IMG/VR virus record: IMGVR_UViG_3300034523_000103
Location: 1-24,333 of that record
From: a virus
DNA length: 24,333 bases
Strand: one strand, 5' to 3'
Part shown: one piece after another, positions 9,830 through 24,333 of the stretch
Layout of the letters: each line of letters opens with the position of its first letter
How positions within the stretch are numbered: position 1 is the stretch's first letter
The notes under the pieces: model-generated
Seen by the model: only the letters and a program-made list of their open reading frames with translations
The model's database searches: none
Told to the model about the DNA's origin: nothing
Program-made: the position numbers and the translations under genes

Positions 9830-9834
9830 CCGCC

Positions 9835-10326: not shown

Positions 10327-10341
10327 TCAAACAGATAATGC

Positions 10342-10369: not shown

Positions 10370-10386
10370 ATGCCTGGAGAATAGCA

Positions 10387-10563: not shown

Positions 10564-10566
10564 CCA

Positions 10567-10944: not shown

Positions 10945-10946
10945 GC

Positions 10947-11333
10947 ATGGGCCTACAGGACAAGCTTCAGACCAAGCTGGCCAAGGCGTTCGACGGGAAG
11001 CTGGCCGATGCGGTTCGCGCTGTATCTGGCGCTCGCGTCGTTGCTGGCGAATACGACCCGATAACCGGCTCGGAGACTGGAAGCTCGACGCTGAATTACA
11101 GCGGGCGCGGCGTCTTTAGCAGCTACTTGGCACGCGAGATTGACGGAAGCCTGATTCAGACGGCTGACGAAAAGCTGCTGGTCCTGCAAAACGAGTTGTT
11201 CGTCCTGCTGGATGGCGCGCAGACGGCAGAAATTGCCGCGCCTGCGATAGGCGACATCATCAGTGGAAAGCGAGTTCTGAACGTGTCGGAAGACCCGGCC
11301 ATGGCGACATTCACCATTCAGTTGCGGGTGTGA
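10947..11333 (+). CDS. head closure / head-tail joining protein
   Basis: A 128-aa protein from ATG 10947, two bases after the adaptor stop. After a helical N-terminus (GLQDKLQTKLAKAFDGKLADAV) it is mostly beta. SGRGVFSSYLAREIDGSLIQ, KLLVLQNELFVLL and IGDIISGKRVLNV resemble the beta-barrel stopper proteins (SPP1 gp16-like) that close the portal after packaging. There is no catalytic motif. The position between adaptor and neck protein supports the call. It ends three bases before the next ATG. Confidence 0.65.
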   Translation: MGLQDKLQTKLAKAFDGKLADAVRAVSGARVVAGEYDPITGSETGSSTLNYSGRGVFSSYLAREIDGSLIQTADEKLLVLQNELFVLLDGAQTAEIAAPAIGDIISGKRVLNVSEDPAMATFTIQLRV

Positions 11334-11335
11334 CG

Positions 11336-11725
11336 ATGAGCTTTGCAGATGATATCCGGCGCTTCAGCGTGAAGACCGAGGCAGCACACAACAAGATTGT
11401 CCGGGCCGCGACTATCGAACTGTTCAGCGGCGTGATCAAGTCGACGCCAGTTGATACGGGCCGAGCCAAAGGTGCGTGGGCAACATCTGTGGGCTCGCCT
11501 ACAAATGATGCGCCTGATCGACTTGGGGAGGCCGCATCCATTGCCGAGGTGGTTGCAATCACACCTCCAGGCGCAGGCCAGGAGACGTATCTGGCGAACA
11601 ACCTGCCTTACATCGAGCGGCTTGAGAACGGCAGTTCCACGCAGGCCCCGGCAGGCATGGTCACCATCAACATGGATCGAGTCTCCAAGATCGTCGCCGC
11701 TGCCATCGAAAAGAACAGGGTTTGA
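11336..11725 (+). CDS. neck / tail completion protein (HK97 gp10-like)
   Basis: A 129-aa product from ATG 11336. A GTG at 11330 would give a GTGA overlap with the previous gene and two more residues, but neither start has a strong ribosome site. The sequence STPVDTGRAKGAWATSVG (about residues 36-53) is the signature of HK97 gp10-like proteins, followed by NNLPYIERLENGSSTQAPAGMV, also typical. These proteins complete the tail end that joins the head. The gene lies between head closure and tail terminator, the expected place. Confidence 0.85.
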   Translation: MSFADDIRRFSVKTEAAHNKIVRAATIELFSGVIKSTPVDTGRAKGAWATSVGSPTNDAPDRLGEAASIAEVVAITPPGAGQETYLANNLPYIERLENGSSTQAPAGMVTINMDRVSKIVAAAIEKNRV

Positions 11726-11728
11726 GCC

Positions 11729-12148
11729 ATGTCTGAAACCAAGATCAACGGAGCGCTGGTTGCCGCCTATCTGGCAAGCAATCTCTACCCGGTAAGCCGA
11801 ACCCATGTCGAAGGCAAGGTTTTCGTTCCAGTAATCGGCCGGGCTTGGGCGCGACTTACCGATATGCCGACCGGCCGCGAGCCAGCCGCATTCGGTGGCG
11901 TGAACCCGGTCGAGCGCACCGGTTACCTGCAGATCGATATCTACCACCCGAACAACACCGGCACCGGGCTCATCCTGGCCGATGTCGACAAGGCGATGAG
12001 CTTCTACAAGCCAGGCCTGAGACTCGAATACCAAGGCCAGCGCGTGCACATCCGCAAAGCTGAACGCTCCAAGATCACGCCAGAGGCTGTTTGGACTGGC
12101 GTGAGCATCCTCGTTTATTACAGCGCGTGGATCTTCCCCGGCACCTGA
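11729..12148 (+). CDS. tail terminator protein
   Basis: A 139-aa protein from ATG 11729, three bases after the neck gene. The order of elements (N-terminal helix NGALVAAYLASNL, FVPVIGRAWARLTDMPTG, GYLQIDIYHPNNTGTG, then VSILVYYSAW) matches the family once called DUF4128 (Phage_tail_terminator_5). Such proteins form a ring that caps the growing tail tube and fixes its length. It is the last gene of the connector block, and a terminator follows within 50 bases. Confidence 0.82.
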   Translation: MSETKINGALVAAYLASNLYPVSRTHVEGKVFVPVIGRAWARLTDMPTGREPAAFGGVNPVERTGYLQIDIYHPNNTGTGLILADVDKAMSFYKPGLRLEYQGQRVHIRKAERSKITPEAVWTGVSILVYYSAWIFPGT

Positions 12149-12173
12149 TTCGCTTTCGCAGCAACACCCGCAC

Positions 12174-12196
12174 CCCGCCCATTGAGCGGGTTTTTT
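12174..12196 (+). terminator. intrinsic terminator before the tail tube gene
   Basis: Arms CCCGC (12174-12178) and GCGGG (12186-12190) surround a seven-base loop, and six T follow (12191-12196). The tail tube Shine-Dalgarno (AGGAG) starts seven bases later. Confidence 0.8.
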
Positions 12197-12215
12197 CGTT
12201 ATAGGAGATCCCAAA

Positions 12216-13118
12216 ATGGGCTTAGCTAACGGCTCTGCCGTACAAACGTATTACACCGAAGAGGTCGCGGGCGTTATCCCTGCCACCCCAGCATGGAAAC
12301 CGATCCGCTTTGTCAGCGCCGGCCTGACGCCGAACATCAATCAGATCGATACGGCGGAAATGAATCAATACCGCCAACAGCAGGCGAGCCGTGGCGGCAC
12401 CTACAGCGTGGCCGGCGATATCGCGGTCGAGCTGTCGTTCTCCAGCTTCGACGACCTGATCCAGGCTGCCATGCAGGGCACTTGGACGGCCAATGTCCTG
12501 AAGATCGGCAAGGTCGAGCGCTCGTTCGCCATCCTTGAGCGTCACACCGACATCGGCGTCGATTACGTCTATCACGGCTGTCGTGTCAGTACGATGGCGA
12601 TCAGCTCCCCGCTGAATGCCCCGGTTGGCGTCACCTTCAGCATGATGGGCACCAAGGCCGAGAAGTACACCGTGCCGGTTGGCTCGACGTACCTGCCGGC
12701 TACCGCGACCGACATCATGATCACCACCAACCTGGCGCTGACCGAGGGCGGGGTGTCCGTGGCTTATGCGACCGAATGGAGCGTCAGCCTCGACAACGGT
12801 ATGGAAGCCCTGTTTGCGCTGGGCAGCCGTGAAGCCTTCGACATTTCCAACGGTGTCGCCAAGGTAACCGGCTCGATGTCGGCCTATCTGGTCGATGCCG
12901 TGCTGTGGGACAAGGTGCTCAACGAGACATCGACCTCGCACGTCATCGAGTTCACCGAGGGAGCGGACAAGTACACGCTGGAGCTGCCAAAGGTTCGCTA
13001 CACCCAAGGCCAGAAGCAAACCAGCGGCCCGGGCGCGATCATTCCTCAGTACACCGTGAGCGCCGGCTACGACGCAACGCTTGCCACCACCATGATGATC
13101 ACTCGCACCGGCGCGTAA
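12216..13118 (+). CDS. major tail tube protein
   Basis: A 300-aa product from ATG 12216, preceded by TAGGAG. The N-terminus MGLANGSAVQTYYTEEVAGV and the repeated beta pattern (TYSVAGDIAVELSFSSFDDL, VGVTFSMMG, VAKVTGSMSAYL) match siphovirus tail tube proteins (Phage_tube_2 type). Hexameric rings of this protein stack on the tape measure. It stands alone between two terminators and has strongly biased codon use, both typical of a highly expressed virion gene. The second half (about 180-300) repeats the beta fold and may be an Ig-like or duplicated tube domain. Confidence 0.85.
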   Translation: MGLANGSAVQTYYTEEVAGVIPATPAWKPIRFVSAGLTPNINQIDTAEMNQYRQQQASRGGTYSVAGDIAVELSFSSFDDLIQAAMQGTWTANVLKIGKVERSFAILERHTDIGVDYVYHGCRVSTMAISSPLNAPVGVTFSMMGTKAEKYTVPVGSTYLPATATDIMITTNLALTEGGVSVAYATEWSVSLDNGMEALFALGSREAFDISNGVAKVTGSMSAYLVDAVLWDKVLNETSTSHVIEFTEGADKYTLELPKVRYTQGQKQTSGPGAIIPQYTVSAGYDATLATTMMITRTGA

Positions 13119-13134
13119 TCGAATCCTTTCTACA

Positions 13135-13158
13135 GGCCCGCCACTGAGCGGGCCTTTT
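13135..13158 (+). terminator. intrinsic terminator after the tail tube gene
   Basis: Arms GGCCCGC (13135-13141) and GCGGGCC (13148-13154) pair perfectly around CACTGA, with four T at 13155-13158. The short T-tract suggests partial read-through into the chaperone gene, which fits a lower need for that product. Confidence 0.8.
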
Positions 13159-13177
13159 CATTTTGGAGATTCACCGC

Positions 13178-13606
13178 ATGTCTGCTAAATCTGAAAAAGC
13201 CACCACCGCTATCAAGCCATTCGCTCTGTCCGACTTCTTCACCTTGGGTGCGCTGGAGAAAGGCAAGAAACTGCCGCTGACCCTGCCGGATGGCACTGAA
13301 ACCGAATACCACTTGATGGTGCTGGGTGCCGATGCGCCTGCTGCCCGTAAAGCCCTGCTGGAAGCAACTCGAATCCTGCGCGATGAGGGAAAGGAAGGCA
13401 TGTCGGTAGAAGAAGAGGCCGCCATCTCTCAGCGTGCCAACCTGCTGTACCGTTCCGCGCTGGCCTTCGACTGGTCGCTGCCGGTGCCATACAGCAAAGA
13501 AGCCGTAGCCGAGCTGCTGCTCAACAACCCAGGCCTGGCGAATGATGTCGAGCGACTGGCGAGCGACCGCGCCCGTTTTTTCGCGCCAGAGTTGAAAGCC
13601 TCCTAA
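13178..13606 (+). CDS. tail assembly chaperone, short form (gpG-like)
   Basis: This is a 142-aa protein from ATG 13178, with GGAGA at 13165-13169; a TTG at 13163 lies in frame but overlaps the ribosome site. The pattern KKLPLTLPDGTETEYHLMV, APAARKALLEATRIL, then a helical LAFDWSLPVPYSKEAVAELL and DVERLASDRARFFA is typical of phage tail assembly chaperones. They bind and spool the tape measure protein while the tail tube polymerises. The gene lies right after the tail tube. Its last codons contain TTTTTTC, where about one in many ribosomes should slip by -1 to make the longer fusion. Confidence 0.82.
   Translation: MSAKSEKATTAIKPFALSDFFTLGALEKGKKLPLTLPDGTETEYHLMVLGADAPAARKALLEATRILRDEGKEGMSVEEEAAISQRANLLYRSALAFDWSLPVPYSKEAVAELLLNNPGLANDVERLASDRARFFAPELKAS
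13576..13582 (+). promoter_or_regulatory. -1 programmed ribosomal frameshift site (slippery T TTT TTC)
   Basis: In the gpG frame the heptamer reads T-TTT-TTC. Slipping back one base re-pairs both Phe tRNAs on TTT. A possible stimulator lies 16 bases downstream, where GCCT and AGGC (13598-13601, 13617-13620) enclose CCC/GGG arms. The -1 frame is open without a stop from well before the site to 13914. Confidence 0.82.
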
Positions 13607-13914
13607 CCCACTGGGAAGGCGAGGCCAAGCTCAATAAGCCGGTCAAGGGATCAACGGCCACAACCCGTGATCACCTGACGCGGGTCTGGAATATGACCGG
13701 CCACAAGCCTCGGGAGCTGGATATTCCGGCAATGCCCGAGGGTATGGGCTATCTGGCCGGCTTGTTCTGGGAGCTCAAGCGCACCAGCGATCCGCTGACC
13801 TGGCAAGAAATGGACGCCTGGACGCGGATGATGGATCGGCAGATCGAGCCGGAAGAGGCCCGGGTGTTGATGAAAATGGACGGCATTCACTGTCGGGTGA
13901 TGAATGAGGGGTGA
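13582..13914 (+). CDS. frameshift extension of the tail chaperone (gpGT-like T domain)
   Basis: This reading frame has no convincing start of its own: the first ATG, at 13693, lacks a ribosome site and lies mid-domain. After the -1 slip the fusion is about 245 aa, 135 from the G frame and 110 from here. The added part reads RARVESLLTHWEGEAKLN at first. DHLTRVWNMTGHKPREL and MPEGMGYLAGLFWELKR then resemble the T domain of lambda-like chaperones, which recruits tail tube subunits. It ends in MKMDGIHCRVMNEG. In most siphoviruses the tape measure gene follows at once. Here a roughly 6 kb accessory island intervenes. Confidence 0.8.
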   Translation, partial: RARVESLLTHWEGEAKLNKPVKGSTATTRDHLTRVWNMTGHKPRELDIPAMPEGMGYLAGLFWELKRTSDPLTWQEMDAWTRMMDRQIEPEEARVLMKMDGIHCRVMNEG

Positions 13915-13946
13915 TGCTGGGCGGGGGGCACCAATCATGCTTTCGA

Positions 13947-14606
13947 CTATTTGAATTTAATCGAATCTAGGAGCTTGAGGGCTGCCTCTGAAGCGTTATC
14001 TGGATCGCGTGCAGCCTCGGCAATGACCTCAAGATACCGCTCCAAAACTTCTCCCGGGGTGAGACCGAACTTTTCTGCCGTATTAATGAGTGACTGGTAT
14101 GCGTCCGTGCTTGCGGCAAAGGTCACGGGCTCGTCGGGGCTTTCAACAAAATCCAGTCTTATGCGAACAGTTTCCGCTTCGTCTTTCTCCCCCGCCAGTT
14201 CCGATACGCTTACGCCCAGCGCGTCGGCCAGTTTGTAGATGTCATCGGTGCTCGGCGAGAGCTCGGCCAGCTCAAAGTCGGTCAGCACCGAGGCATCAAT
14301 TCCTGTCCTTTTGGCGAGCAGGCGAAGGCTAATTTTTTTGGCGCAGCGCAGCTCAAGAAGACGAGTGGAGAAGCCTTCGTACAACTCAATGCTCGGGCGG
14401 CTTACCTCCTCTCCTTGAAGCTCATTGGTAGAAACGCCGAGCGCGTCCGCTAACCGCATTAAGACCTTGAGGCGAGGTATGGACTTGCCGGACTCATACT
14501 TGGAAATCATCGACCATGCGACTCCGGCGGCAGCACCAAGCTCGCGCTGGGTGAGCCCCTTCTGAGCCCTAAGTTGAGTGAGCCGTTCAGCGAATGTTGC
14601 TTTCAT
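13947..14606 (-). CDS. repressor with two tandem XRE-type HTH domains
   Basis: A 219-aa protein read leftward from ATG 14606 (AGGGA just upstream). Residues 7-62 are a first HTH_3 domain (LTQLRAQKGLTQRELGAAAG, SMISKYESGKSIP). Residues 80-137 are a second (RLLELRCAKKISLRLLAKRT, then FELAELSPSTDDIYKLADAL). Each ends with the same ADALGVS-x2-EL motif, so the protein arose by internal duplication. The C-terminal 80 residues may bind other subunits. There is no RecA-cleavage Ala-Gly/Ser-Lys pattern, so an antirepressor rather than the SOS response may inactivate it. It is divergent from an arc-ant-like pair and converges on the tail chaperone gene. It probably acts at the palindrome 14623-14647 and represses its own promoter and the rightward genes. 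Confidence 0.82.
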   Translation of the reverse strand: MKATFAERLTQLRAQKGLTQRELGAAAGVAWSMISKYESGKSIPRLKVLMRLADALGVSTNELQGEEVSRPSIELYEGFSTRLLELRCAKKISLRLLAKRTGIDASVLTDFELAELSPSTDDIYKLADALGVSVSELAGEKDEAETVRIRLDFVESPDEPVTFAASTDAYQSLINTAEKFGLTPGEVLERYLEVIAEAARDPDNASEAALKLLDSIKFK

Positions 14607-14622
14607 GTGTTCCCTGATATTT

Positions 14623-14647
14623 GTACGGGGTTATTTTGTCCCCGTAC
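14623..14647. promoter_or_regulatory. candidate operator of the double-HTH repressor
   Basis: GTACGGGG (14623-14630) and CCCCGTAC (14640-14647) form a perfect 8-bp inverted repeat around the A/T-rich spacer TTATTTTGT. It lies 17 bases upstream of the repressor start codon, where binding would block its promoter. The symmetry and spacing suit a dimeric or two-domain HTH repressor. Confidence 0.6.
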
Positions 14648-14678
14648 CAAGCGTATGCCCCGAAAGGCACAAAAGGCA

Positions 14679-14738
14679 ACAAACGAAACTTTGTTGTTGA
14701 CAGACGACACAAACGGAACAAAACTACACAAACGAAAC
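14679..14738 (+). promoter_or_regulatory. three 11-bp direct repeats and a -35-like box upstream of arc-like gene A
   Basis: ACAAACGAAAC occurs at 14679-14689 and 14728-14738, and as ACAAACGGAAC at 14709-14719. TTGACA (14697-14702) is a perfect -35 match, but the -10 at the expected place (AAAACT, 14720-14725) is weak, so an activator may be needed. The repeats flank and overlap this promoter and are likely binding sites for a regulator of the module, perhaps the Arc-like protein. Confidence 0.5.
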
Positions 14739-14756
14739 GCAGGCAAGGAGCTGGTA

Positions 14757-14927
14757 ATGAGCGAAGTGAAAGAGAAGAAAGTGGTAGGTATTCGTCTGGT
14801 CGATTTGATGCGGGAGAGGCTCAGTGTTCAAGCCGAACTGAACGGTCGCAGTCTGAGCGGTGAGATCGTCTACCGACTGAGGAAGTCGCTGGAGCAGGAG
14901 GGCGAGCATGAAAAGCAGCGCGCATAA
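14757..14927 (+). CDS. Arc-like ribbon-helix-helix repressor (module A)
   Basis: A 56-aa protein from ATG 14757, with AAGGAG at 14745-14750. After a short basic arm, KVVGIRLVDLMRERLSVQAE and LNGRSLSGEIVYRLRKSL form the beta strand and two helices of the Arc/Mnt RHH fold (PF03869 type). NGRS-x-x-x-E-I is the turn also found in P22 Arc. As in P22, it sits directly before an antirepressor gene and probably limits transcription of that operon. The stop at 14925-14927 runs into a hairpin whose T-tract faces the minus strand. The frame is open further upstream, but that part lacks a start signal and overlaps the operator region. Confidence 0.8.
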   Translation: MSEVKEKKVVGIRLVDLMRERLSVQAELNGRSLSGEIVYRLRKSLEQEGEHEKQRA

Positions 14928-14996
14928 AAAAACCCCAGCGCTGGCCGGCGCTGAGGTTTTGGGTAACGAATCCAACTATTCAGGAAAGAAACGTCA
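14926..14996 (-). ncRNA. candidate antisense RNA, sar-like (module A)
   Basis: On the minus strand, ATGACA (complement of 15025-15030), 16 bases and TATGAT (complement of 15003-15008) preceded by TGC form an extended -10 promoter inside the ant start. Transcription would begin near 14996 and cover the ant Shine-Dalgarno. It would end at a hairpin with 9 bp (14933-14941 with 14948-14956, a G-U in this orientation but a C-A mismatch in the other) followed by seven U. The RNA would be about 70 nt, close to P22 sar RNA, which blocks ant translation. Confidence 0.6.
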
Positions 14997-15838
14997 TGAC
15001 GAATCATAGCACAGCCGCATCCAATGTCATCCACTTCGCCTTTGGGGCGAAGAGTGTTCGTATTCAGGAGATCGAAGGGGCGCCCTGGTTCTGCGTAACG
15101 GATGTCTGCAGCATCCTCGGGTATTCGAATAGTCGTGATGCCATGTCCAAGCATTGCCGCGAGAAGGGTGTAGCGAAACGCGACACCCTTACCTCCAAAG
15201 GCAAGCAGGCATTGACGTTCATTGACGAAGGCAACCTCTACCGCCTGATCATCAAGAGCCGCAAGGAAGAAGCGCAGCGTTTCGAGTCTTGGGTTTGTGA
15301 TGAGGTGCTCCCTGCAATCCGCAAGACGGGCCGCTACGAAGATCAGGGCAAGATGGCCGAGCTGATGGATCAGCTGAGCCTGAGCCAGTTCAATACGATC
15401 AAGGGAGTGATTCGCGACAAGATCAAGGCTGCACCTGCAGAGAAGCGCCAAGGCTTGCAGCTAGTCATGCATAACCGCCTGCATACCCGGTTCAACGTGC
15501 CGCGTACCGAGTTGATCCCGGCCAGTCAGTTCGAAGCCGCGTGCAATTTCGTTGCGGCTTATGCGCTTGAGGGTGAGTACCTGCCGAAGCAGGAGGGCAT
15601 ACAGATCGCCGGGAGCCCAAGGTCGCGCTACTTGGTCAGTTTCGACCACAAGGGCGACCAACGAGTCCAAATGATCCCTGCTGATGCTTGCGTAATGACG
15701 CATCGGGAATTGATAGCGGCAATTGTTACACCGGGCGAGCTTCCTGTATCGACTGACGAGATGTTTGAGTTCGTTGTGGCTGGCATGTCCAACTTGAAGG
15801 CTCGCTCCGATTATCAGGCTCGCAAGGTGGCAGCATGA
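14996..15838 (+). CDS. BRO-N family antirepressor (module A)
   Basis: This 280-aa protein starts at ATG 14996, with AGGAAAG upstream. Residues about 16-115 are a BRO-N domain: APWFCVTDVCSILGYSNSRD, then IDEGNLYRLIIKSRKEEAQRF and WVCDEVLPAIRKTGRY. This domain is found in phage antirepressors and binds DNA or repressors. The C-terminal part contains RFNVPRTELIPA and ACNFVAAY-LEGE (165-194), shared with the second BRO protein in the window, so the two are paralogs. It should inactivate a prophage repressor and promote lytic growth. The stop overlaps the Rha gene in ATGA. A candidate antisense RNA covers its ribosome site. Confidence 0.82.
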   Translation: MTNHSTAASNVIHFAFGAKSVRIQEIEGAPWFCVTDVCSILGYSNSRDAMSKHCREKGVAKRDTLTSKGKQALTFIDEGNLYRLIIKSRKEEAQRFESWVCDEVLPAIRKTGRYEDQGKMAELMDQLSLSQFNTIKGVIRDKIKAAPAEKRQGLQLVMHNRLHTRFNVPRTELIPASQFEAACNFVAAYALEGEYLPKQEGIQIAGSPRSRYLVSFDHKGDQRVQMIPADACVMTHRELIAAIVTPGELPVSTDEMFEFVVAGMSNLKARSDYQARKVAA

Positions 15839-16563
15839 ATCTGATCACCACCACCGCTCTAACTATGTCCTCGCAAGAGATCGCCGATCTTGTCGGCTCG
15901 CGTCACGACGACGTCAAGCGTTCCATTGATCGCCTTGTAGCTCGCGGCGTGGTTGCCCAGCCGCCAATGGCGGACGGACAAAAAGCCGGTAACGGAGTGG
16001 TCGTTCAGGAGTACCTGGTCAATAAGCGGGACAGCTTCGTCGTAGTGGCGCAGCTTAGCCCGGAGTTCACTGCGCGCCTCGTTGACCGCTGGCAGGAACT
16101 GGAGGCAGGCCTTGCGCCTGACCTGAATACGGAAGAGGGGAAGCTTGTCCTTATTCAGGAAATGGCGCAAAAGCAGCTAGCACTGATTGCCGAGAACAAG
16201 CTGATTGCCGGTCAGCGCGACCATGCCGTCGCGACCAAGGCAGAAATTGGGAGTCGGCGCGAAGCCACTGCGATGTCTACCGCTTCCACCATGACGCGCA
16301 AAGTCAAAAAGCTTGAGGCTGAACTTGGTCGCAACCAGAAGCATGCGACGGTTATCGCGGTGGAAAGGGCGACAGATAGGAAATTTCCCAAGAACGCCTA
16401 CGTCGCAATGCGTAAATGGTGCCGCGAGAATGGTGTAAGCCCTGTCGACGTAGTCGATGATCGTTATGGCACGGTGAAGGCCTGGCCGGCGGGAGCATGG
16501 AAATCGGCGCACGACATTGACTTGCGCAAACTTTTTGCCGCCGAAAGGAAAAAAGCTGCATGA
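15835..16563 (+). CDS. Rha-family phage regulatory protein
   Basis: A 242-aa protein coupled to the antirepressor by an ATGA overlap, with AAGGTGG upstream. Residues 10-90 match the Rha domain (PF09669): MSSQEIADLVGSRHDDVKRS, NKRDSFVVVAQLSPEFTARLVDRW. A long helical segment follows (about 100-175, EMAQKQLALIAENKLIAGQ). The C-terminal half (KFPKNAYVAMRKWCRENG onward) resembles the winged DNA-binding tails of phage antirepressors. Rha proteins interfere with growth of certain phages in integration-defective hosts and are thought to be regulators. Here it would act with the BRO protein in one operon. Confidence 0.8.
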   Translation: MNLITTTALTMSSQEIADLVGSRHDDVKRSIDRLVARGVVAQPPMADGQKAGNGVVVQEYLVNKRDSFVVVAQLSPEFTARLVDRWQELEAGLAPDLNTEEGKLVLIQEMAQKQLALIAENKLIAGQRDHAVATKAEIGSRREATAMSTASTMTRKVKKLEAELGRNQKHATVIAVERATDRKFPKNAYVAMRKWCRENGVSPVDVVDDRYGTVKAWPAGAWKSAHDIDLRKLFAAERKKAA

Positions 16564-16898
16564 CCAATATCGTGTCGATTCGGCGACTTAGGCCTGGAGA
16601 TAGCGCGACCCCGCAGAGCGCCGCAATGGAGAGGCTGCACTCTGGTGAGTCGGCGGGGGTCGCTGCGCTCATCAGCGTAAAAAGCTTCGAGCGGATTCAG
16701 GAAGTGCTAGGGCTTCTACTTGAGAAGTCCATGGATTGTCGGTCGCTTTCGGATGAGACCATCAATGAAATTGAGGGGCTTGGCGGTCTTTGTCATGAGG
16801 AGGTCTTCGACCTTGTCTTCGCTGCACACTTCGAAATGAGTGCGGCAGAAGAAACACTGAGACTGCTGAAAGCGAGCTGCCCGCAGTCTGCTGACTGA
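16560..16898 (+). CDS. small protein at the end of the antirepressor operon (112 aa)
   Basis: It starts in an ATGA overlap with the Rha gene, so it is the last gene of a coupled arc-ant-rha operon, closed by the terminator at 16935-16954. The N-terminus (MTNIVSIRRLRPGDSATPQS) is basic and unstructured. The rest is acidic and helical (ISVKSFERIQEVLGLLLEKS, then EEVFDLVFAAHFEMSAAEET). It contains no recognised domain, signal peptide or membrane segment. It could be a partner of the regulators. Function unknown. Confidence 0.65.
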   Translation: MTNIVSIRRLRPGDSATPQSAAMERLHSGESAGVAALISVKSFERIQEVLGLLLEKSMDCRSLSDETINEIEGLGGLCHEEVFDLVFAAHFEMSAAEETLRLLKASCPQSAD

Positions 16899-16934
16899 CG
16901 CCAAAACCTAATTGTGACTCCGGATCACCTTTGA

Positions 16935-16954
16935 CCTCGCCTCGGCGGGGTTTT
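16935..16954 (+). terminator. intrinsic terminator closing the module A operon
   Basis: Arms CCTCGC (16935-16940) and GCGGGG (16945-16950, starting from G16945) surround CTCG, with four T at 16951-16954. A promoter-like sequence for the next gene begins inside the T-tract. Confidence 0.7.
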
Positions 16955-16982
16955 GGTCGTTCCCTGTGATTCAGCATAGAAT
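16953..16982 (+). promoter_or_regulatory. candidate promoter of the DUF2513 gene
   Basis: TTGGTC (16953-16958), 18 bases and TAGAAT (16977-16982). The same TTGG-YC-17/18-TAGA layout recurs at 17410-17438 and 19071-19099, each time just after a terminator or its remnant. This supports a shared moron-type promoter. Confidence 0.5.
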
Positions 16983-17009
16983 CTCAGCATTGATAAATTT
17001 GGAGATAGC

Positions 17010-17369
17010 ATGAAACGCGACTGGGAACTGGTTCGCAAAGTCCTGCTGGAGGTCGAGGCGCTTGAATCAAGCAGGCAGATGCTTCGCTCCAGCGCTATCG
17101 ACGGCTATGACTCTGATTTTTCTGCCTACCATATCCACATGCTGATTGAGGCAGGGCTGATTGATGGGAAGTGCGGCAAGTCGCTGAGCGGCCCTCGCGA
17201 TTGCTGGGCCAATGAGCTGACATGGGCAGGACATGAGTTCCTGGACAAGATCAGATCTCAGACGGTTTGGAATAAGACTGTGGGTCTCTTGCGGGAAAAG
17301 GGGCTGGATCTGTCATTCGATACTATCAAGGCTGCTGCTGCGTCCGTGGCGACTAGTCTGCTCGGGTAG
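17010..17369 (+). CDS. DUF2513 family protein
   Basis: A 119-aa product from ATG 17010, with TTGGAGA eight bases upstream. MKRDWELVRKVLLEVEALES at the start, then YHIHMLIEAGLIDGK and LTWAGHEFLDKIRSQTVWNK are the hallmarks of DUF2513. The fold is winged-helix-like (a helix, an 'EAGLI' wing and a 'T-x-x-G-x-x-F-L' segment). The family is common in prophages and mobile elements and has no established function, although the fold suggests regulation. It has its own promoter-like sequence and stands apart from the antirepressor operon, so it behaves as an independent moron gene. Confidence 0.85.
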   Translation: MKRDWELVRKVLLEVEALESSRQMLRSSAIDGYDSDFSAYHIHMLIEAGLIDGKCGKSLSGPRDCWANELTWAGHEFLDKIRSQTVWNKTVGLLREKGLDLSFDTIKAAAASVATSLLG

Positions 17370-17409
17370 TACTCTCTGCAATGGTCGCTTACCTTGGCAG
17401 CTGGGGGGG

Positions 17410-17437
17410 TTGGCCCCTCCCTTCAATAGTGGTAGAT
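17410..17437 (+). repeat. left copy of a 28-bp direct repeat flanking module B
   Basis: The 28 bases match 19071-19098 at 26 positions. The core CAATAGTGGTAGAT is identical. Both copies contain TTGGCC, 17 bases and TAGAT, a promoter-like pattern. This left copy points into the convergent Mnt-like gene and so drives nothing, as if its original downstream gene had been displaced. Upstream, GGCAGC and a G-run look like a damaged version of the terminator before the right copy. Confidence 0.75.
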
Positions 17438-17446
17438 AGTGACGGG

Positions 17447-17782
17447 CTACTTCTTCTTGTTGCGAAGCGCTTCCGCCGCCTCATGCACCGCTCCACCCCG
17501 AGCCTCGGCTAGCTGCCTGGCGCGCCGCTCTATCTCTTGCTCCATTTGCAGGGCGAAGTCGGCAACGATATTTGAAATAGGCTGAGAGGCCTTCTCCCGA
17601 ATCTGGCTCAGCCGGTATTCGCGTTCGACTGCGGATTCTTGTGGGTCGAGGCTTTCCTCTAGGCGCGAAATTATCTCTGCGTGCAACGATCTTGAACCCG
17701 CCTTGGCGCTTTCTTCGAGGCGCCGCCTTAGCTCGACAGGCATTCGAATTGGGTACGGGGAGATGGCGTGTCGATCATTCAT
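17447..17782 (-). CDS. Mnt-like ribbon-helix-helix repressor (module B)
   Basis: A 111-aa protein read leftward from ATG 17782. Residues 8-47 form an Arc/Mnt RHH domain: SPYPIRMPVELRRRLEESAK, then GSRSLHAEIISRLEESL. The rest is a long charged helix (QMEQEIERRARQLAEA) suited to a coiled coil, in the way the Mnt C-terminus forms tetramers. It is divergent from an arc-like gene followed by an antirepressor, which is the mnt-arc-ant order of P22 immI. The ribosome site is weak (GAG only), so expression is probably low. On the minus strand TTGAGT (17833-17838), 17 bases and CATACT (17810-17815) could be its promoter. The protein should repress the ant promoter during lysogeny. Confidence 0.8.
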   Translation of the reverse strand: MNDRHAISPYPIRMPVELRRRLEESAKAGSRSLHAEIISRLEESLDPQESAVEREYRLSQIREKASQPISNIVADFALQMEQEIERRARQLAEARGGAVHEAAEALRNKKK

Positions 17783-17821
17783 GGCGGGCTCGCGCTTTGT
17801 GTTGTGCTCAGTATGCGAAAT

Positions 17822-17880
17822 GAATCAAAAAGACTCAATGAGTTAACTTGACTCATTCCGCGTTTGAGTTACTATGACTC
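17822..17880. promoter_or_regulatory. operator array and divergent promoters between mnt-like and arc-like genes
   Basis: The half-site GACTCA, in either orientation and with small variations, occurs at 17822-17827, 17832-17837, 17839-17843, 17850-17855, 17865-17869 and 17876-17880. ACTCA-A-TGAGT (17833-17843) is a perfect palindrome. Rightward, TTGACT (17848-17853), 16 bases and TACTAT (17870-17875) form a good sigma-70 promoter for arc-ant. Leftward, a weaker promoter serves the mnt-like gene. The half-sites overlap both, as expected for RHH control. Confidence 0.7.
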
Positions 17881-17902
17881 CACACCCAGCAAGGAGCGGA
17901 AA

Positions 17903-18076
17903 ATGAAAGATGCACACAAGGTATCCCCATACAGCCTGCGGATTTCTGAGCAGCTGAAGGCCAGGGCGAGGGATGAGGCGCACGCGAACCGGCGCAGCCT
18001 TAATGCGGAGCTTGAGCTGTTAATTGAGGAGGGTTTCAAGTGGCGGGAAGCGCAGAAGAATCAGGCAGTAGCCTAA
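17903..18076 (+). CDS. Arc-like ribbon-helix-helix repressor (module B)
   Basis: A 57-aa protein from ATG 17903, with AAGGAG at 17891-17896. An in-frame ATG at 17864 falls inside the operator and promoter region and is unlikely. VSPYSLRISEQLKARARDEA and NRRSLNAELELLIEEGF give the RHH strand and two helices. The SPY-x-x-R start is shared with the divergent Mnt-like protein, as P22 Arc and Mnt share ancestry. It should repress the rightward promoter and so damp antirepressor synthesis. Its start is exactly 239 bp before the following ant start, the same as in module A. Confidence 0.82.
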   Translation: MKDAHKVSPYSLRISEQLKARARDEAHANRRSLNAELELLIEEGFKWREAQKNQAVA

Positions 18077-18077
18077 A

Positions 18078-18139
18078 ACGAAGAAACCCCGGCTTGCAGG
18101 CCAGGGCTTCGGATGTGAAAACTTTCGACGGAAATCACG
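18078..18139 (-). ncRNA. candidate antisense RNA, sar-like (module B)
   Basis: On the minus strand ATGACA (complement of 18168-18173), 16 bases and TATTAT (complement of 18146-18151) with an upstream TGC form an extended -10 promoter in the first codons of ant. The transcript would start near 18139 and mask the ant ribosome site. It would end at CCCTGGC/GCCGGGG (18100-18106 with 18087-18093), followed by TTTCTTCGTTTT. The hairpin has a G-U in this orientation but a C-A mismatch in the other, so it is built for leftward transcription. Confidence 0.6.
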
Positions 18140-18141
18140 AC

Positions 18142-19020
18142 ATGAATAATAGCACAGCGGTATCGAATGTCATTCCTTTCAGCTTCGGCAGGCAGCAGGT
18201 GCGCACGCTGATGATTGATGATCAGCCATGGTTCGCCGCCCAAGATGTACTCGACGCCCTTGAGTATGCCGATACATACAAGCCTTCTCGTGCTGTATCG
18301 CACGTCCCATCTCAATGGAAGGGTGTGCAACGGTTGCACACCCTTGGCGGCACACAGCAGATCATGATGATTTCGGAGCAAGGGCTGTACTTCGTGCTTG
18401 GCCGCTCCGATAAGCCCAAGGCCCTACCGTTTCAAATGTGGCTGGCAGGGGACGTGCTTCCATCTATTCGCAAGACTGGTGGCTACACGGACCATCAAGG
18501 CTCAATGGGCGATTTGGTCGGCTCCGTAATCGGTACCAGTGGCGAGCACGTCCTGGATCGGGTCATCGAGCAGAAGGCCTCGCCAGTACCTCATTCGCTC
18601 CAGCGCAGTTTCAAGCACACCATGAAGAGCCGGCTTCGCTCGCGCTTTAACGTTCCGCGCACTGCCTTGATTCCGGCGGAGTACCTGAACGACGCCTGCA
18701 ACTTCGTGGCGGCTTACTCCTTGGAAGGCGAGTGGATTGGCCGCGCCAGCTTGAACACCCACGAATTGACCGACAAGGAACTGTACGATGTTGGCTTCCT
18801 CATTCACCACTTCTTGGCGGTGAAAGGAATTTATGAGCGATGGGGTGTTGGTAGCGCGTTAAGAATGTTGGGTTCGCCAATCCCGGCAGAAATTACCGAC
18901 CACTTCAGCGATGCGATGATGGCTATAGGTGGGCTAAAAAAGCGCTCGGCCGACATGGATGTTGCGGCAAATCGCCTTGGCCTGCGGAATGGGAAGGCGA
19001 CTCGATCTGCCGCAGCCTAA
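18142..19020 (+). CDS. BRO-N family antirepressor (module B)
   Basis: This 292-aa protein starts at ATG 18142, with GGAAA upstream. The frame is open 34 codons further up, but that overlaps arc-like B and lacks a good start. Residues about 12-115 are a BRO-N domain (DDQPWFAAQDVLDALEYADT, SEQGLYFVLGRSDKPKALPF, WLAGDVLPSIRKTGGY). The middle carries RFNVPRTALIPA and ACNFVAAYSLEGEW (168-198), shared with the module A paralog. The C-terminus differs and ends AANRLGLRNGKATRSAAA. It should neutralise a repressor when the ant promoter is released. Its first codons overlap a candidate antisense promoter, and a terminator follows at 19053-19072. Confidence 0.82.
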   Translation: MNNSTAVSNVIPFSFGRQQVRTLMIDDQPWFAAQDVLDALEYADTYKPSRAVSHVPSQWKGVQRLHTLGGTQQIMMISEQGLYFVLGRSDKPKALPFQMWLAGDVLPSIRKTGGYTDHQGSMGDLVGSVIGTSGEHVLDRVIEQKASPVPHSLQRSFKHTMKSRLRSRFNVPRTALIPAEYLNDACNFVAAYSLEGEWIGRASLNTHELTDKELYDVGFLIHHFLAVKGIYERWGVGSALRMLGSPIPAEITDHFSDAMMAIGGLKKRSADMDVAANRLGLRNGKATRSAAA

Positions 19021-19052
19021 TTATTCAGCTACGCCTAGACCTTTAGAGGCAG

Positions 19053-19072
19053 CCCCGCACATGCGGGGTTTT
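19053..19072 (+). terminator. intrinsic terminator after module B
   Basis: CCCCGC (19053-19058) and GCGGGG (19063-19068) pair perfectly around ACAT, with four T at 19069-19072. The right direct repeat starts inside the T-tract. Confidence 0.75.
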
Positions 19073-19098
19073 GGCCCTTCCCCTCAATAGTGGTAGAT
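19071..19098 (+). repeat. right copy of the 28-bp direct repeat, also a candidate promoter
   Basis: This copy matches 17410-17437 at 26 of 28 bases. TTGGCC (19071-19076), 17 bases and TAGATT (19094-19099) would serve as the promoter of the zinc-ribbon gene starting at 19127. Confidence 0.7.
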
Positions 19099-19126
19099 TG
19101 CCGGTATTGAATGGGGAGGGTGAGAA

Positions 19127-19912
19127 ATGTCGGCAGTTAAATGCAGGGAGTGCGGCGCGCAGTTAAGGGTAAAGGCTAGCATCTGCCCGGCATGCGGAGC
19201 AAAGCTGTCACGGAAAGCGAAAGTGTTGGCTTGGGCTGCGCTTGCACTGATCGCTTTTGTAGTCCTGAAAGGCGTCTTCAGCGAAGAGCCTGCGAACACC
19301 GAAGCACAAAAAAGCACTCCGATGGATATCGCGGAGGCTGTGGCTGCAAGCCAGCCAATGCCAGAGCTGAGTTCTGGTCTGGCGCCGATTAGAAGTGGCG
19401 CTCTCGACAGTTACACGAAAGCTACGCACCCAAAAATATATGCAAAATGGGGCGCCGAAGGAGCAAAGAAAATTGAAGCCCATCAGAAGCTTGCCGCAGA
19501 CTTTATAGCAACGTCTGGCAGGTGTGACGCAGTTTCAATAGCCGGCCTATCCGAGCAGCGTAGCAGTCCACCCTCGAACATCGTGGTTTTCGTGGATTGT
19601 GAAAACGGCCAGCGGTTCTATATCGGGCCGAATGATCTTGGCTCTCCACTGCAGTCGGAGGCCGAGCGGGCATTGAACAAAGAGTCAGCTATTTCAATTT
19701 GTCGAGAATCGGTGAGAGCGGCCGCAAAATTCCCATCGTCTGTGAGCTTTAGCGCCTTCGGTACGGCGGCAGAAACCAACAAAACAACAGGCGGTACCAC
19801 GGTCTATATGGACTTTGAATCGAAGAACAGGATTGGAAATTTAATACCGCAGCGAGCTACGTGCGTATTCCCTGTTAGCGGAAAGCCAGAGCTGCGAGTC
19901 AGCAACAGATAG
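19127..19912 (+). CDS. zinc-ribbon membrane-anchored protein, moron-like
   Basis: A 261-aa protein from ATG 19127, preceded by GGGGAGGGTGAG. The N-terminus is a zinc ribbon with CRECG (Cys6, Cys9) and CPACG (Cys20, Cys23). Basic residues and a hydrophobic segment at about 32-50 (VLAWAALALIAFVVLKGV) follow. The remaining 210 residues would lie outside the membrane, with the ribbon in the cytoplasm. The outer part has cysteines (RCDAVSI, VDCENGQRFYIG, ATCVFPV) that could form disulfides. Many bacterial and prophage proteins share this ribbon-TM-tail plan. Base composition is more A/T-rich than in late genes. With its own promoter and terminator it is probably expressed in lysogens, perhaps altering the cell surface or excluding other phages. 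That role is a guess. Confidence 0.75.
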   Translation: MSAVKCRECGAQLRVKASICPACGAKLSRKAKVLAWAALALIAFVVLKGVFSEEPANTEAQKSTPMDIAEAVAASQPMPELSSGLAPIRSGALDSYTKATHPKIYAKWGAEGAKKIEAHQKLAADFIATSGRCDAVSIAGLSEQRSSPPSNIVVFVDCENGQRFYIGPNDLGSPLQSEAERALNKESAISICRESVRAAAKFPSSVSFSAFGTAAETNKTTGGTTVYMDFESKNRIGNLIPQRATCVFPVSGKPELRVSNR

Positions 19913-19930
19913 CGCCGAACAACACCAACA

Positions 19931-19957
19931 AGCCTCGCCAAGTGCGGGGCTTTTTTT
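19931..19957 (+). terminator. intrinsic terminator before the second chaperone-like gene
   Basis: AGCCTCGC (19931-19938) and GCGGGGCT (19944-19951) pair over 8 bp with one T-G around CAAGT, and a run of seven T ends at 19957. Confidence 0.88.
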
Positions 19958-19972
19958 CGACTGGAGAAAAGT

Positions 19973-20371
19973 ATGCGGCCCCAAGATTTCTATGTGAGGC
20001 AGAGGGCGGAAGAGGGGCGGCGCGTCGATCTATCAAATCCTGACGGAACACCTAGTGGCCACTGGATGGTTATCAGGTCTGTTCTCTCAATCCAGTACGA
20101 AGAAGCATTCAAGCAGATCAGCCGTGCCGCGCTAGACGAGGTCACGCAGATCGCAAGCGCTGGAGACGGGGCGGCAATGACGCTGATGACCAAGACGCTC
20201 GCGCGAAGCCGTAAGGCCCGGCTCGTCGCATCTCTCATCGCCGACTGGTCGCTTGATTGCGACTGCTCAGAGCAAGAAAAAACCCGACTCCTTGTAAGCG
20301 CCCCGCGACTACGGCGCCAGATCGAGCGCGTCAGTGAAACAATATTCGTAGCTGGAGCCGGTCATGACTGA
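19973..20371 (+). CDS. second tail-assembly-chaperone-like protein
   Basis: A 132-aa product from ATG 19973, with CTGGAG upstream. Its plan parallels the gpG-like protein at 13178. It has DFYVRQRAEEGRRVDLSNPDGTPSGHW at the start (compare FFTLGALEKGKKLPLTLPDG), a helical middle, LVASLIADWSLDCD (compare ALAFDWSLPVP), and APRLRRQIERVSETIFV near the end (compare NDVERLASDRARFFA). The N-terminal RAEEGRRVDLSNPDG style is seen in chaperone-like proteins of other phages. It overlaps the tape measure start by eight bases, the proper position for a chaperone. No slippery heptamer is evident near its end. It may be an alternative or captured chaperone, or a tail adaptor. Confidence 0.6.
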   Translation: MRPQDFYVRQRAEEGRRVDLSNPDGTPSGHWMVIRSVLSIQYEEAFKQISRAALDEVTQIASAGDGAAMTLMTKTLARSRKARLVASLIADWSLDCDCSEQEKTRLLVSAPRLRRQIERVSETIFVAGAGHD

Positions 20372-23300
20372 ATACGCAAAGCTGGTTATCTCGGTAGACA
20401 GCACCCAGGCAAAGAAGGCAGACAATGATCTAGGGGCGCTCGACAAAAGCGCGTCACGCCTCACGTCCGGCCTTGGCAAGATGATTGCCCCGCTGGTTTC
20501 TGTCGCCGCTGCTATGGCCGCGCTGAATAAAGCATCCGACGTTCAGCGTCAGTTCGACGTGCTCAATGCTGGCCTTATCACTGCCACCGGGAGCAGCGAG
20601 AAGGCAGCCAGCGCTTTTAAGGCTCTGCAAGAATTTGCTCAAAAAACACCGTATGACTTGAATCAGGCGGTCAAAGGCTTCACGCAACTGGTAAACCTTG
20701 GCCTGACCCCGTCAGAAAAGGCCTTGATGTCCTACGGCAACACTGCATCGGCCATGGGTAAAGACCTCAATCAAATGATTGAGGCGGTCGCTGACGCAGC
20801 AACAGGCGAGTTTGAGCGCCTGAAAGAATTCGGTATTAAGGCCAAAGTAAGCGGCGACCAGGTATCGCTCATTTTCCAGGGCGTGACGACGAAGGTCGGC
20901 AATAACGCAAAGGAAATTGAAAGTTTTCTTATCAAGCTGGGAGAGACAAAGTTCGGCGACGCCATGTCGCTGCGGATGGCGACACTAGACGGAGCTGTAT
21001 CCAACCTTGGCGACACCTGGGAAAACACCTTTCGTCTTGTAAATGACGCCGGGCTTGGCGATGTAATGAGAGAGTCCGTCAATGACGCTGCGGAAGCGCT
21101 TGGTGAACTCAATAACATGCTCGCATCCGGGGAGATGGAAGGCTACCTGGAGGCCTCGTCTATCGCATGGTCTGAATGGGCGATTGACATAACGGAATCG
21201 ATCCGCCAAGTAAGTGTTTTCCTTGATGGCACATGGGACGAGTGGGGCGAAGGTGCAAAAGACGCATCGAAGGGTATGTACCTTGGATTCAAGGAGTTCC
21301 CTGCCGAGATTCGCGCCTATTTCCAAGAGGCCGCTGTAGAGGCCATTTCCTTTGTTGATCGCCTGGTTGCTCAGGGCGCGTACGCGAAAGACGCCATTGC
21401 CGCAATATTCGATAACACCACGCTGGATGACGCACGCAAGAAGTATGACGCGACGGTGACCGTGTCGAACCAAGTCCGTCAGGACATGATTGATGACATC
21501 TCACAAGAAAAAGACGCGACGATCAACGCAGTAAACGAAAAGATCGAGTCATCGAAAGGGCTTCGCCACGAATACGACCTTCAGCAAAAGGCCGCCAAAG
21601 CCTTAACCGCTGATCGCCTAGCGCAGTACAAAACCAAGGGTGACGGCTCCAGCGCCTCATCTTCTTCGGCAGTCGAAAAGGCAGCAAAGGCAGCTCAGTC
21701 GCTTGTCGCCACCCAGGCAAAAGCGGAAAAGTCATTCCTTGCGACCACAGCAATAGTTGTCAGCTCCACCAACGCCATGGCCGACGCCTACCTCTCCGGC
21801 GCCGACAACGTGCGTGAGCTGACGATCCAGCAAAAGATCGAAGAGGAGTTGCTCAAGACTGGTGCGGGCGCGCGGGACGCTGTCACTGCGGCAGTGAACC
21901 GCGAAGCCGATGCGAAAGATCGCTTGGACATCAATCAGTACATTGCCAACCTTCGCGTGGAGAATGCCAGTACGGTCGCCCAGGCCGCTGCAACCCTTCA
22001 AGGCAGAGACGCCCTTGAGTCATTCAACATCACCAAGGCGATGACGGTTGCGCTGGCCGGGAGAAACATTGAGGTTGGCAGCAAGGAATACCAACTGCTG
22101 CTGGACCAGACCAAAGCACAGCTTGACGCCAACAAGGCGCTGGAGCAGGCCAACTCTATTGAAGGGATCGTTGACCGGCTGAATCCGCAGGTAAAGCTCC
22201 TGCGCGATTACACGAAAGAGCAGAAAGCGCTCAACGCCGCCATCGCTTCAGGCATCGGGGATACGGCTTTATACCAAGATACTTTGGCAAAGCTTGCCCT
22301 TGAATATGAGCAAAACAAAAACGCCGCGACCGCTTGGGGTCAGTTCACCGAAGGCGCAGTTGATCGGGTAGATAGCGCATTCGCCGATGCGTGGAAGAAC
22401 ATCGGCGATGGTTTCAACGGATTTGCTACCAGCCTTAAGGATGGCTTCAAGCAGCTGCTTGCCGAGCTGGCGCACATGGCGATCACCAAGCCGATCATCA
22501 TGCAAATTGGTGCATCGCTTGGGGTTGGCGGTCTGTCTGCGCAGTCATCCGGGTTGTTCGGTGGCTCGAGCGGTGGCGGCACTGATATTTTCTCGTTGGC
22601 GAAGGGCGCCAATCAGCTCTACAGCGTTGCCAACAGCGGCTTCGGGCAGGCTATTTCGTCCGGCTGGGCCTCTGGTGACGGACTGTTTGGTGGTCTGCAA
22701 AACGCGTTCAGCGGTGGCTATGGTTATGTTGGCAGTGCACTGGGGTTTGGCTCTGGTGCTGCAGGTGCCGCCGCGTCTTCTGGGCTTGCCCAGGGAGCAG
22801 CCGCATACGGTAGTCAGTTCGGTACAGGCATTGGTACTGTTTCGTTCCCAGGTGCCGCGAGTGGTGCAGCTGGCGGCGCGGCAAGCGGTGCAGCAAGTGC
22901 CGGCCTCAGTGGCCTGGGTGCTGCGGGCTATGGGATTGGTGGTGCGCTGTATGGTTATTCACAAGCGGGGCTGAAAGGCGCTGCCACGGGAGCCGCCGGG
23001 GCCGTTGGCGGAGCCTATGCTGGTGCCGCTATCGGTTCTGTTGTTCCTATTATTGGCACCGCTATTGGTGCGGCAATAGGCGCTGTGCTGGGCGGGGTTG
23101 TTGGTGGATCACTGTTCGGCGGTGACTGGCAAACCAAGGATCAAGGCCTCTCGCTGGGTGTCGAAAACGGCGATTTCGCGGGCCAGCAGTTCGAGTACCA
23201 GAAGAAGAAAGGCGGGTTGTTCGGCAAGAACAAGAAACGCACCCGGCTGTCTGCGCTCGACCCTCAAATGCAGTCAGCTCTCGATGCAACGTATGACGCT

Positions 23301-24333
23301 ACTGAAGGATCTGTGCTTTCGTTGTTTGATCGACTTAATGTCGAGCTTAACGATGGCGTCCTCGATGGGCTGAATGTTGCTTCAACCAAGATCAGCACCA
23401 AGGACAAGACGGCTGAGCAGATCCAGGAGGAAATCGCCAAGTGGTTTGGTGGTGTGGCGGATTCGATGGTTTCCGCTGTGGATGCGGCAACCGGTGCAGG
23501 CCTCGGCGGCTTCAACTTCGAGAGCCTGACGACGTTCGTCAATAACCTGTACTCCGTCAACGACGTGTTGAAAAACCTGAATGTCGGGCTTTTCGATCTC
23601 AACGTTAACGGCGGGTACATGGCGCAGAGCCTGTCGGCCATGGCGGGCGGTCTTGAGGCTCTCACCACCAGCGCAAGCACCTACTACGACAACTTCTTCA
23701 CGGAGACGGAGAAGGCTGACGATACGCTTGGGGCTGTCCGCAAGCAGTTCGAAGCCATCAACATGACGCTTCCAGCCAGCCGCCAGGGCTATCGGGACAT
23801 CATTGAAGCGCTGGACGTGACCACTGAATCTGGGCGGGCGATGTTCGTCACGCTGACCGCACTGGCTGGCAATGCCGACGCGGCGTATACGATTCTGGAA
23901 CAGCGCCTGAATCAGGGCGTTACAGACAGCTTCTCGGGCGTACAACGCTCCATTGCAGCCCAGCAAAAGGCCGCAACGTCCGCTTATAACGCGACCAACA
24001 CCTCGCTCAGTGACATGGTCAGCACCGTGACGGAAAGCGTCAACGGCCTGAAGTCTGTCAGCACCAGCTTGAGCTCGGCCCTCAAGGCGTTGCGCGGCGA
24101 TTCGGATGACGCCGTGAAGATGCTGCGTGCGCAGGCGCAAGCGACGCTGCAAAGCGCATTGGCCACCGCTCGTTCCGGTAAGTCGCTGTCTGGCTTCACC
24201 GGCTTGGAGGATGCGCTCGACACCGTCAGCAACAACAACACTGACCTGTACGGTTCCATGGAGGACTTCGCACGGGACCAGGGTCGTACTGCCAACGTAG
24301 TGGCCGAGCTGAATGCCATCAACGGCAAGCAGC
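20364..24333 (+). CDS. tape measure protein, 5' part (truncated by the window)
   Basis: It starts at ATG 20364, with GGAG at 20354-20357, and stays open to the window edge, at least 1323 codons. The N-terminal 240 residues (VQRQFDVLNAGLITATGSSE, FAQKTPYDLNQAVKGFTQLV, EAVADAATGEFERLKEFGIKAK) are typical of phage tail tape measure proteins. Residues about 250-720 are mainly helical and coiled coil. Residues about 730-920 are Gly/Ala-rich, ending in a hydrophobic glycine-zipper stretch (about 872-918, with GSVVPIIGTAIGAAIGAVLG). This may insert in the host membrane during DNA entry. The protein sets tail length and is ejected with the DNA. Its length implies a tail of roughly 200 nm or more by the usual 1.5 Å per residue rule. 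Confidence 0.92.
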   Translation, partial: MTEYAKLVISVDSTQAKKADNDLGALDKSASRLTSGLGKMIAPLVSVAAAMAALNKASDVQRQFDVLNAGLITATGSSEKAASAFKALQEFAQKTPYDLNQAVKGFTQLVNLGLTPSEKALMSYGNTASAMGKDLNQMIEAVADAATGEFERLKEFGIKAKVSGDQVSLIFQGVTTKVGNNAKEIESFLIKLGETKFGDAMSLRMATLDGAVSNLGDTWENTFRLVNDAGLGDVMRESVNDAAEALGELNNMLASGEMEGYLEASSIAWSEWAIDITESIRQVSVFLDGTWDEWGEGAKDASKGMYLGFKEFPAEIRAYFQEAAVEAISFVDRLVAQGAYAKDAIAAIFDNTTLDDARKKYDATVTVSNQVRQDMIDDISQEKDATINAVNEKIESSKGLRHEYDLQQKAAKALTADRLAQYKTKGDGSSASSSSAVEKAAKAAQSLVATQAKAEKSFLATTAIVVSSTNAMADAYLSGADNVRELTIQQKIEEELLKTGAGARDAVTAAVNREADAKDRLDINQYIANLRVENASTVAQAAATLQGRDALESFNITKAMTVALAGRNIEVGSKEYQLLLDQTKAQLDANKALEQANSIEGIVDRLNPQVKLLRDYTKEQKALNAAIASGIGDTALYQDTLAKLALEYEQNKNAATAWGQFTEGAVDRVDSAFADAWKNIGDGFNGFATSLKDGFKQLLAELAHMAITKPIIMQIGASLGVGGLSAQSSGLFGGSSGGGTDIFSLAKGANQLYSVANSGFGQAISSGWASGDGLFGGLQNAFSGGYGYVGSALGFGSGAAGAAASSGLAQGAAAYGSQFGTGIGTVSFPGAASGAAGGAASGAASAGLSGLGAAGYGIGGALYGYSQAGLKGAATGAAGAVGGAYAGAAIGSVVPIIGTAIGAAIGAVLGGVVGGSLFGGDWQTKDQGLSLGVENGDFAGQQFEYQKKKGGLFGKNKKRTRLSALDPQMQSALDATYDATEGSVLSLFDRLNVELNDGVLDGLNVASTKISTKDKTAEQIQEEIAKWFGGVADSMVSAVDAATGAGLGGFNFESLTTFVNNLYSVNDVLKNLNVGLFDLNVNGGYMAQSLSAMAGGLEALTTSASTYYDNFFTETEKADDTLGAVRKQFEAINMTLPASRQGYRDIIEALDVTTESGRAMFVTLTALAGNADAAYTILEQRLNQGVTDSFSGVQRSIAAQQKAATSAYNATNTSLSDMVSTVTESVNGLKSVSTSLSSALKALRGDSDDAVKMLRAQAQATLQSALATARSGKSLSGFTGLEDALDTVSNNNTDLYGSMEDFARDQGRTANVVAELNAINGKQ

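Follow-up and report, generated by a model that had tools for sequence, protein, structure and literature searches.

A putative P22-type sar gene at the start of an antirepressor gene, and its relatives in Pseudomonas prophages

The first codons of antB, one of two antirepressor genes in an IMG/VR virus record of 24,333 bases (the window, analysed at its full length), very probably belong to a sar gene of the P22 type that would silence antB. As judged from sequence comparison, RNA polymerase would start at an extended -10 promoter within these codons and transcribe leftward, and the resulting RNA of about 66 nt would end at a terminator that overlaps the end of arcB. Pairing of this RNA with the antB ribosome-binding site should then block translation of Ant.

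The details of P22 used here come from its GenBank annotation and from excerpts of secondary papers. In the immI region of P22 (NC_002371), sar is annotated at 15090-15021 on the minus strand, with its promoter at 15125-15097 and its terminator at 15058-15021; arc ends at 15022 and ant starts at 15091. PMC12197685, in the portion available, describes P22 sar as pairing with ant mRNA and interfering with initiation. The element in antB has the same place and strand as P22 sar, a TGC-extended -10 promoter in the first ant codons, a terminator at the arc end with a stem resembling that of P22, a length near 70 nt, and a late-operon location. Its promoter points toward arc, on the strand opposite ant, and reads across the arc-ant gap. 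A previous reading of the sequence alone had called the element sar-like, and promoter, terminator, strand, and predicted length do match the annotated P22 gene. P22 immI and module B also share a divergent mnt gene beside arc-ant, whereas module A has a helix-turn-helix (HTH) repressor instead. Other differences are that the sar sequences have diverged, that two modules occur here in one phage, and that P22 Ant groups with P22_AR_N while the Ant proteins of the window are of the Bro-N type.

Layout of the two modules

The window contains two regulatory modules, A and B, amid tail genes, which include the tail tube (12216-13118), tail chaperones (13163-13914), a chaperone-like ORF (19973-20371), and the tape measure gene (from 20364). 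The arc and ant genes of both modules are oriented in the late direction. In module B, a gene for an Mnt-like RHH repressor (17447..17782, minus strand; Pfam Arc 1.1e-7; P22 Mnt, 1mnt, E 0.0057) is divergent from arcB (17903..18076, plus strand), which encodes an Arc-like RHH repressor of 57 residues (PHROG Arc-like repressor, E 3e-7). ArcB has no Pfam match at 0.001, and P22 Arc in the PDB is matched only at E 0.6. The proposed target of the sar-B RNA, antB (18142..19020, plus strand), encodes a Bro-N antirepressor (Pfam Bro-N 8.3e-19; PHROG anti-repressor Ant 2.8e-36). A candidate Pant-B, TTGACT-16-TACTAT (17848..17875, plus strand), is recognized only by its match to the consensus, and three TGAGTYA...TGACTC repeats within 17821..17880, around and over it, are candidate operators. 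Module A consists of a double-HTH repressor gene at the position that Mnt holds in B (13947..14606, minus strand; Pfam HTH_3 in two stretches), arcA (14757..14927, plus strand; Pfam Arc 2.2e-7), and antA, another Bro-N antirepressor gene (14996..15838, plus strand; Pfam Bro-N 2.3e-23). Cargo genes accompany the modules: pRha (15835-16563), DUF2513 (17010-17369), and a zinc-ribbon gene (19127-19912). The two tail-chaperone pieces lie on either side of both modules, and modules and cargo together resemble material inserted into the tail operon.

Elsewhere in the window, the large terminase gene (2443-4704) has an intein-like interruption (Intein_splicing 1.6e-6, under the Pfam cut-off), and an HNH endonuclease ORF (3921-4577) overlaps that stretch. 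Amid the head genes, the ORF at 9835-10326 encodes an HNH endonuclease with an AP2-like domain and is likely a free-standing homing endonuclease.

Promoters within the first ant codons

Psar-B, a candidate extended -10 promoter of the form ATGACA-16-TATTAT called from consensus and conservation, occupies antB codons 2-11 on the minus strand (18146..18173). It is composed of ATGACA (18173-18168), a 16-nt spacer, and TATTAT (18151-18146) preceded by TGTGC, and it matches 10 of the 12 consensus bases in addition to the TG. Within antA, Psar-A (15003..15030, minus strand) also has 10 of 12 bases plus TG; its sequence is ATGACA-16-TATGAT. Thus, the idea that both ant genes carry ATGACA-16-TATTAT with a TG extension holds for B, but not for the -10 of A. 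The two promoters tie for best among the 6 promoter-like sites in 8000-24333 (16.3 kb), and both sit at the same place in the two ant genes. The number of such sites is not in excess (6 versus a shuffle mean of 6.2), and terminator-like sites in the region are not far over chance (21 versus 16.8). With counts so near chance, it is place, score, and conservation that carry the argument.

Protein searches with ant (5 and 7 loci) and with arcB (50 viral and 19 genome loci) supplied the relatives, and an RNA model later added more. Removal of identical loci reduced the listing of arc-ant starts from 71 to 62; five loci (L021, L062, L080, L081, and L082) have no qualifying downstream ORF. Codons 2-15 of 52 ants were replaced by synonymous codons at the usage of the same genes in 2000 trials. 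The summed promoter score of these ants is 496, while the protein-preserving null averages 380 and never exceeds 403. For modules A and B each, the observed score was attained in 0.45% of the 2000 trials (tail 0.0045). Some ants are not individually significant against this null, for example the pRha-type ants, L005, L012, L033, L036, L040, L054, L068, and L086.

The codons themselves show the same pattern, in counts from loci that are related and hence not independent. In 29 Bro-N ants, pairs that share a residue also share its codon at frequencies of 1.00, 1.00, 1.00, and 0.85 at codons 2-5, versus a gene-body mean of 0.47 over 225 columns (99th percentile 0.97). In codons 6-8, which lie in the promoter spacer, this frequency is down to 0.29-0.50. 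The sequence-only reading had called for this comparison, naming high synonymous divergence across the -35 and -10 as the result that would speak against it; the relatives show the opposite, with 85-100% identity at codons 2-5 versus 47% in the body. Threonine is encoded by ACA in 36 of 44 distinct starts, although only 9% of the gene-body Thr codons are ACA; serine is encoded by AGC in 35 of the 44, and all 11 SNVI ants use AAT-GTC-AT. Thirteen ants lack the three codons ahead of the AAT-GTC-AT site, and 12 of these have TTCAA, which corresponds to a TTGAA-type -35 restored at the same 16-nt spacing after the three-codon loss. Together, these comparisons indicate that the promoter itself is under selection.

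It is very unlikely that the conserved ant start instead reflects the peptide itself, or AT-rich early codons that serve initiation, with the promoter likeness as a by-product. The N-terminal tail (NSTAVSNVI in antB, HSTAASNVI in antA) is indeed conserved as a peptide too, and the protein-preserving null is fairly high, with a mean for module B itself of about 7.4 of 13. However, synonymous choice is fixed just at the -10 and -35 but relaxed across the codons of the spacer, AT-richness leaves the preference for AGC and ACA unexplained, and none of 7 arc-less Bro-N ants has the tail. The proposal that this promoter dictates the N-terminal residues of Ant survives with one refinement: it applies to NNST and the SN of SNVI, but VIPFxF is also found in Bro-N antirepressors that have no arc and thus belongs to the Ant proteins.

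Predicted RNAs and their terminators

The predicted sar-B RNA (about 66 nt; 18074..18139, minus strand), whose 5' end is set by the P22 spacing, is exactly complementary to the stretch between arcB and antB, antB ribosome-binding site included, and ends at the arcB stop. As had been anticipated for the arcB end, a leftward intrinsic terminator with wobble pairing is found at 18110-18083 (18083..18110, minus strand); its stem of 11 pairs contains two wobbles (G-U and U-G) and is followed by TTCGTTTTAG, an interrupted U-tract. By the same spacing, the sar-A RNA is predicted at about 71 nt (14926..14996, minus strand), with a terminator at about 14929-14960 (minus strand) that has a 13-pair stem and a T7 tail. 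A short inverted repeat, AGGC-NNNN-GCCT (18061-18076), lies in the last arcB codons directly past the sar-B terminator and is retained in most relatives; it is a possible second terminator. An Rfam 15 search of the window gave nothing at the sar site at the gathering score, its sole match being the Proteo-phage-1 RNA (RF03044; 219-297, E 6.9e-13), and a BLASTN search of the sar-B region against plasmids gave no match.

Structure was compared in an alignment of 50 regions that includes P22 and phage UFJF_PfDIW6 (A1) and in one of 35 rows with a few near-duplicates omitted (A2); L015, whose sar segment is identical to that of module B, was omitted from the sar alignments. The terminator stem is kept across the 50 regions, with changes on both sides at 5 of the 11 pairs. 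Its 50 rows contain 65 G-U cells versus 2 A-C cells, and at least one G-U is present in 49 of the 50 and, by reading of the list, in 18 of 19 distinct stems. Because a G-U pair becomes an A-C mismatch on the complementary strand, it is the antisense strand that folds, and in 49 of 50 regions it has the lower minimum energy. The same wobble bias rules out a hairpin that acts mainly in the arc-ant mRNA. In the predicted two-hairpin fold, the terminator hairpin is clear, while the sar-B 5' hairpin is predicted yet weak (Z -0.46). For the sar 5' part in general, mean Z is -1.07 antisense versus 0.16 sense, and 16 of 35 fall below -1. Selection on both promoter and terminator, as originally argued from their recurrence in the two modules, is supported by promoter scores above the codon null, stem covariation, and strand-biased wobbles.

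In phages P1 and P7, the c4 RNA comes from the ant strand, upstream of that gene. In contrast, the promoter and the structured strand described here are opposite ant, which sets the element apart from c4. What the two would share is inhibition of antirepressor translation at the ribosome-binding site, which PMC12197685 describes for c4.

Predicted pairing energies are -143 and -135 kcal/mol for the cognate pairs and -55 and -51 for the crossed pairs. The crossed values are within what 200 shuffles gave (mean -42, minimum -58 and -62); thus, modules A and B should be largely separate, and in these energy models sar-A is expected to target chiefly antA.

There is only a very small chance that the conserved block is a mere homologous junction for the swapping of ant genes among phages, without an RNA function. 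The block does stand ahead of five antirepressor families, and in UFJF_PfDIW6 the DNA similarity is highest at this arc-ant block. A junction would, however, conserve the spacer like the hexamers, and the spacer is not conserved; moreover, strand-biased wobbles, stem covariation, and its reappearance in enteric phages, where the -10 sequence differs, point to RNA. A junction and an RNA function can both be true. That Psar works by collision with Pant transcription, or by way of a long antisense transcript that extends across arc, instead of a short pairing RNA, is close to negligible in probability: the promoters are convergent and the imperfect sar-B U-tract makes some read-through into arcB plausible, but the arc-end terminator is conserved with covariation and the short RNA of P22 pairs with ant mRNA (PMC12197685, in part).

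Occurrence, antirepressor families, and proposed role

An RNA model (R1), trained on 35 sar regions from the window and from IMG/VR loci, contained neither P22 nor promoter sequence past the start codon. R1 detects P22 sar at its annotated position (15093-15006, E 5.8e-5); its second-best P22 match falls on the late terminator with E 0.0013. It matches the cultured P. fluorescens phage UFJF_PfDIW6 at E 4e-14, and Medea1, PhiR12_5, Kapi1, GF-2, and a Klebsiella phage at E 2.7e-7 to 1.4e-5. Of 398 genomes from the genus to which Pseudomonas fluorescens PS918 belongs, 22 have an R1 match at E<=1e-6, two of them twice; the 22 include G001 and G002, already found by the arcB protein search. By reading, the ant start carries a TG-extended -10 in 18 of 22 newly added genome loci (L099-L120); in the 4 without it, the downstream gene is of the DUF3077 or AlpA type. 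Among 369 genomes sampled across the class, the centre genome G001 alone, and none outside Pseudomonas, is matched at E<=1e-5, a cut-off that enteric phages would score too low to pass.

In the open full-text literature, as far as accessible, sar is described solely in P22-like phages, and an earlier report may exist in subscription papers. Sar is reported with arc and ant in epsilon34 and UAB_Phi20 (available text of PMC2629481 and PMC12111858), which are Salmonella phages close to P22; none is from Pseudomonas. The accessible part of the UFJF_PfDIW6 paper names two Arc proteins and an antirepressor, and no antisense RNA. On the evidence of these matches, the predicted P22-type sar is far wider in range than annotated, so that a textbook antisense RNA of P22 and close kin would now be an unannotated, widespread family in these prophages.

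For a count by protein family, 94 distinct starts (102 before removal of identical loci) were classed by domain, with Pfam names taken from representatives; L093, with no start codon at the expected place, was skipped, and the count covers arc loci whose next ORF starts within 50-95 nt. The extended -10 is found at its fixed place in 65 of 70 pseudomonad arc-linked antirepressors of five Pfam families (Bro-N 35/37, P22_AR_N 12/13, pRha 12/13, ORF6N 3/3, AntA 3/4) and in 4 of 4 enteric ones. The five pseudomonad exceptions are L033, L036, L040, L054, and L086. A stricter cut (total score >=9, with TG) retains 52 of the 70 (Bro-N 33, P22_AR_N 10, pRha 3, ORF6N 3, AntA 3); pRha-type genes mostly fall under it through a poor -35, and L005 and L012 have the extended -10 with a total score below 9. 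The extended -10 occurs in none of 7 arc-less Bro-N antirepressors, nor in arc-linked DUF3077 (0/4) or AlpA (0/1) genes, and in 1 of 8 unclassified ORFs, L107, which is a truncated Bro-N ant with an intact Psar. This pattern argues that the site tracks the arc-antirepressor pair, not the protein family. Likewise, the NNST tail is common to unrelated antirepressors, while five arc-less Pseudomonas Bro-N proteins start with MQTA without NNST.

Arc-sar is probably a portable cassette for unrelated antirepressors (Bro-N, P22_AR_N, pRha, ORF6N, and AntA), whose common N-terminal tag Psar would write. It is likely that the regulatory DNA dictates these first residues, the tag being NNST in pseudomonad phages and of the SIA type in enteric ones, and there is a reasonably good case that one phage can run two arc-sar units with separate RNAs. 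The cassette would provide an example of an antisense promoter that fixes the N-terminus of unrelated proteins. It also yields a sequence rule that annotation pipelines can use: an extended -10 in ant codons 2-5 together with a terminator at the arc stop.

Since both modules lie in the late tail operon in the same direction, the likeliest need for sar, by analogy with P22, would be the silencing of ant messages from late read-through. Arc and Mnt could stop Pant but not such messages, which the RNA could silence too. The sections available of two papers on P22-like phages bear on this point: PMC2629481 locates the "ant moron" in the late operon, and PMC12111858 states that PLATE also transcribes arc and ant and, contrary to the usual view, that arc translation is inhibited by sar. 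Loss of sar should raise Ant and disfavor lysogeny. The sar family makes lysogeny control testable in Pseudomonas prophages with arc-sar.

Two further groups of arc loci were observed. In L099, L117, L118, L037, and L116, a sar-like arc-end hairpin and leader are followed by DUF3077 or AlpA without the extended -10; these are perhaps decayed or differently controlled units. In L074, L075, L076, and L083, an Arc-like gene lies beside a gene of about 92 residues with an SPESALIxNP motif, without Psar.
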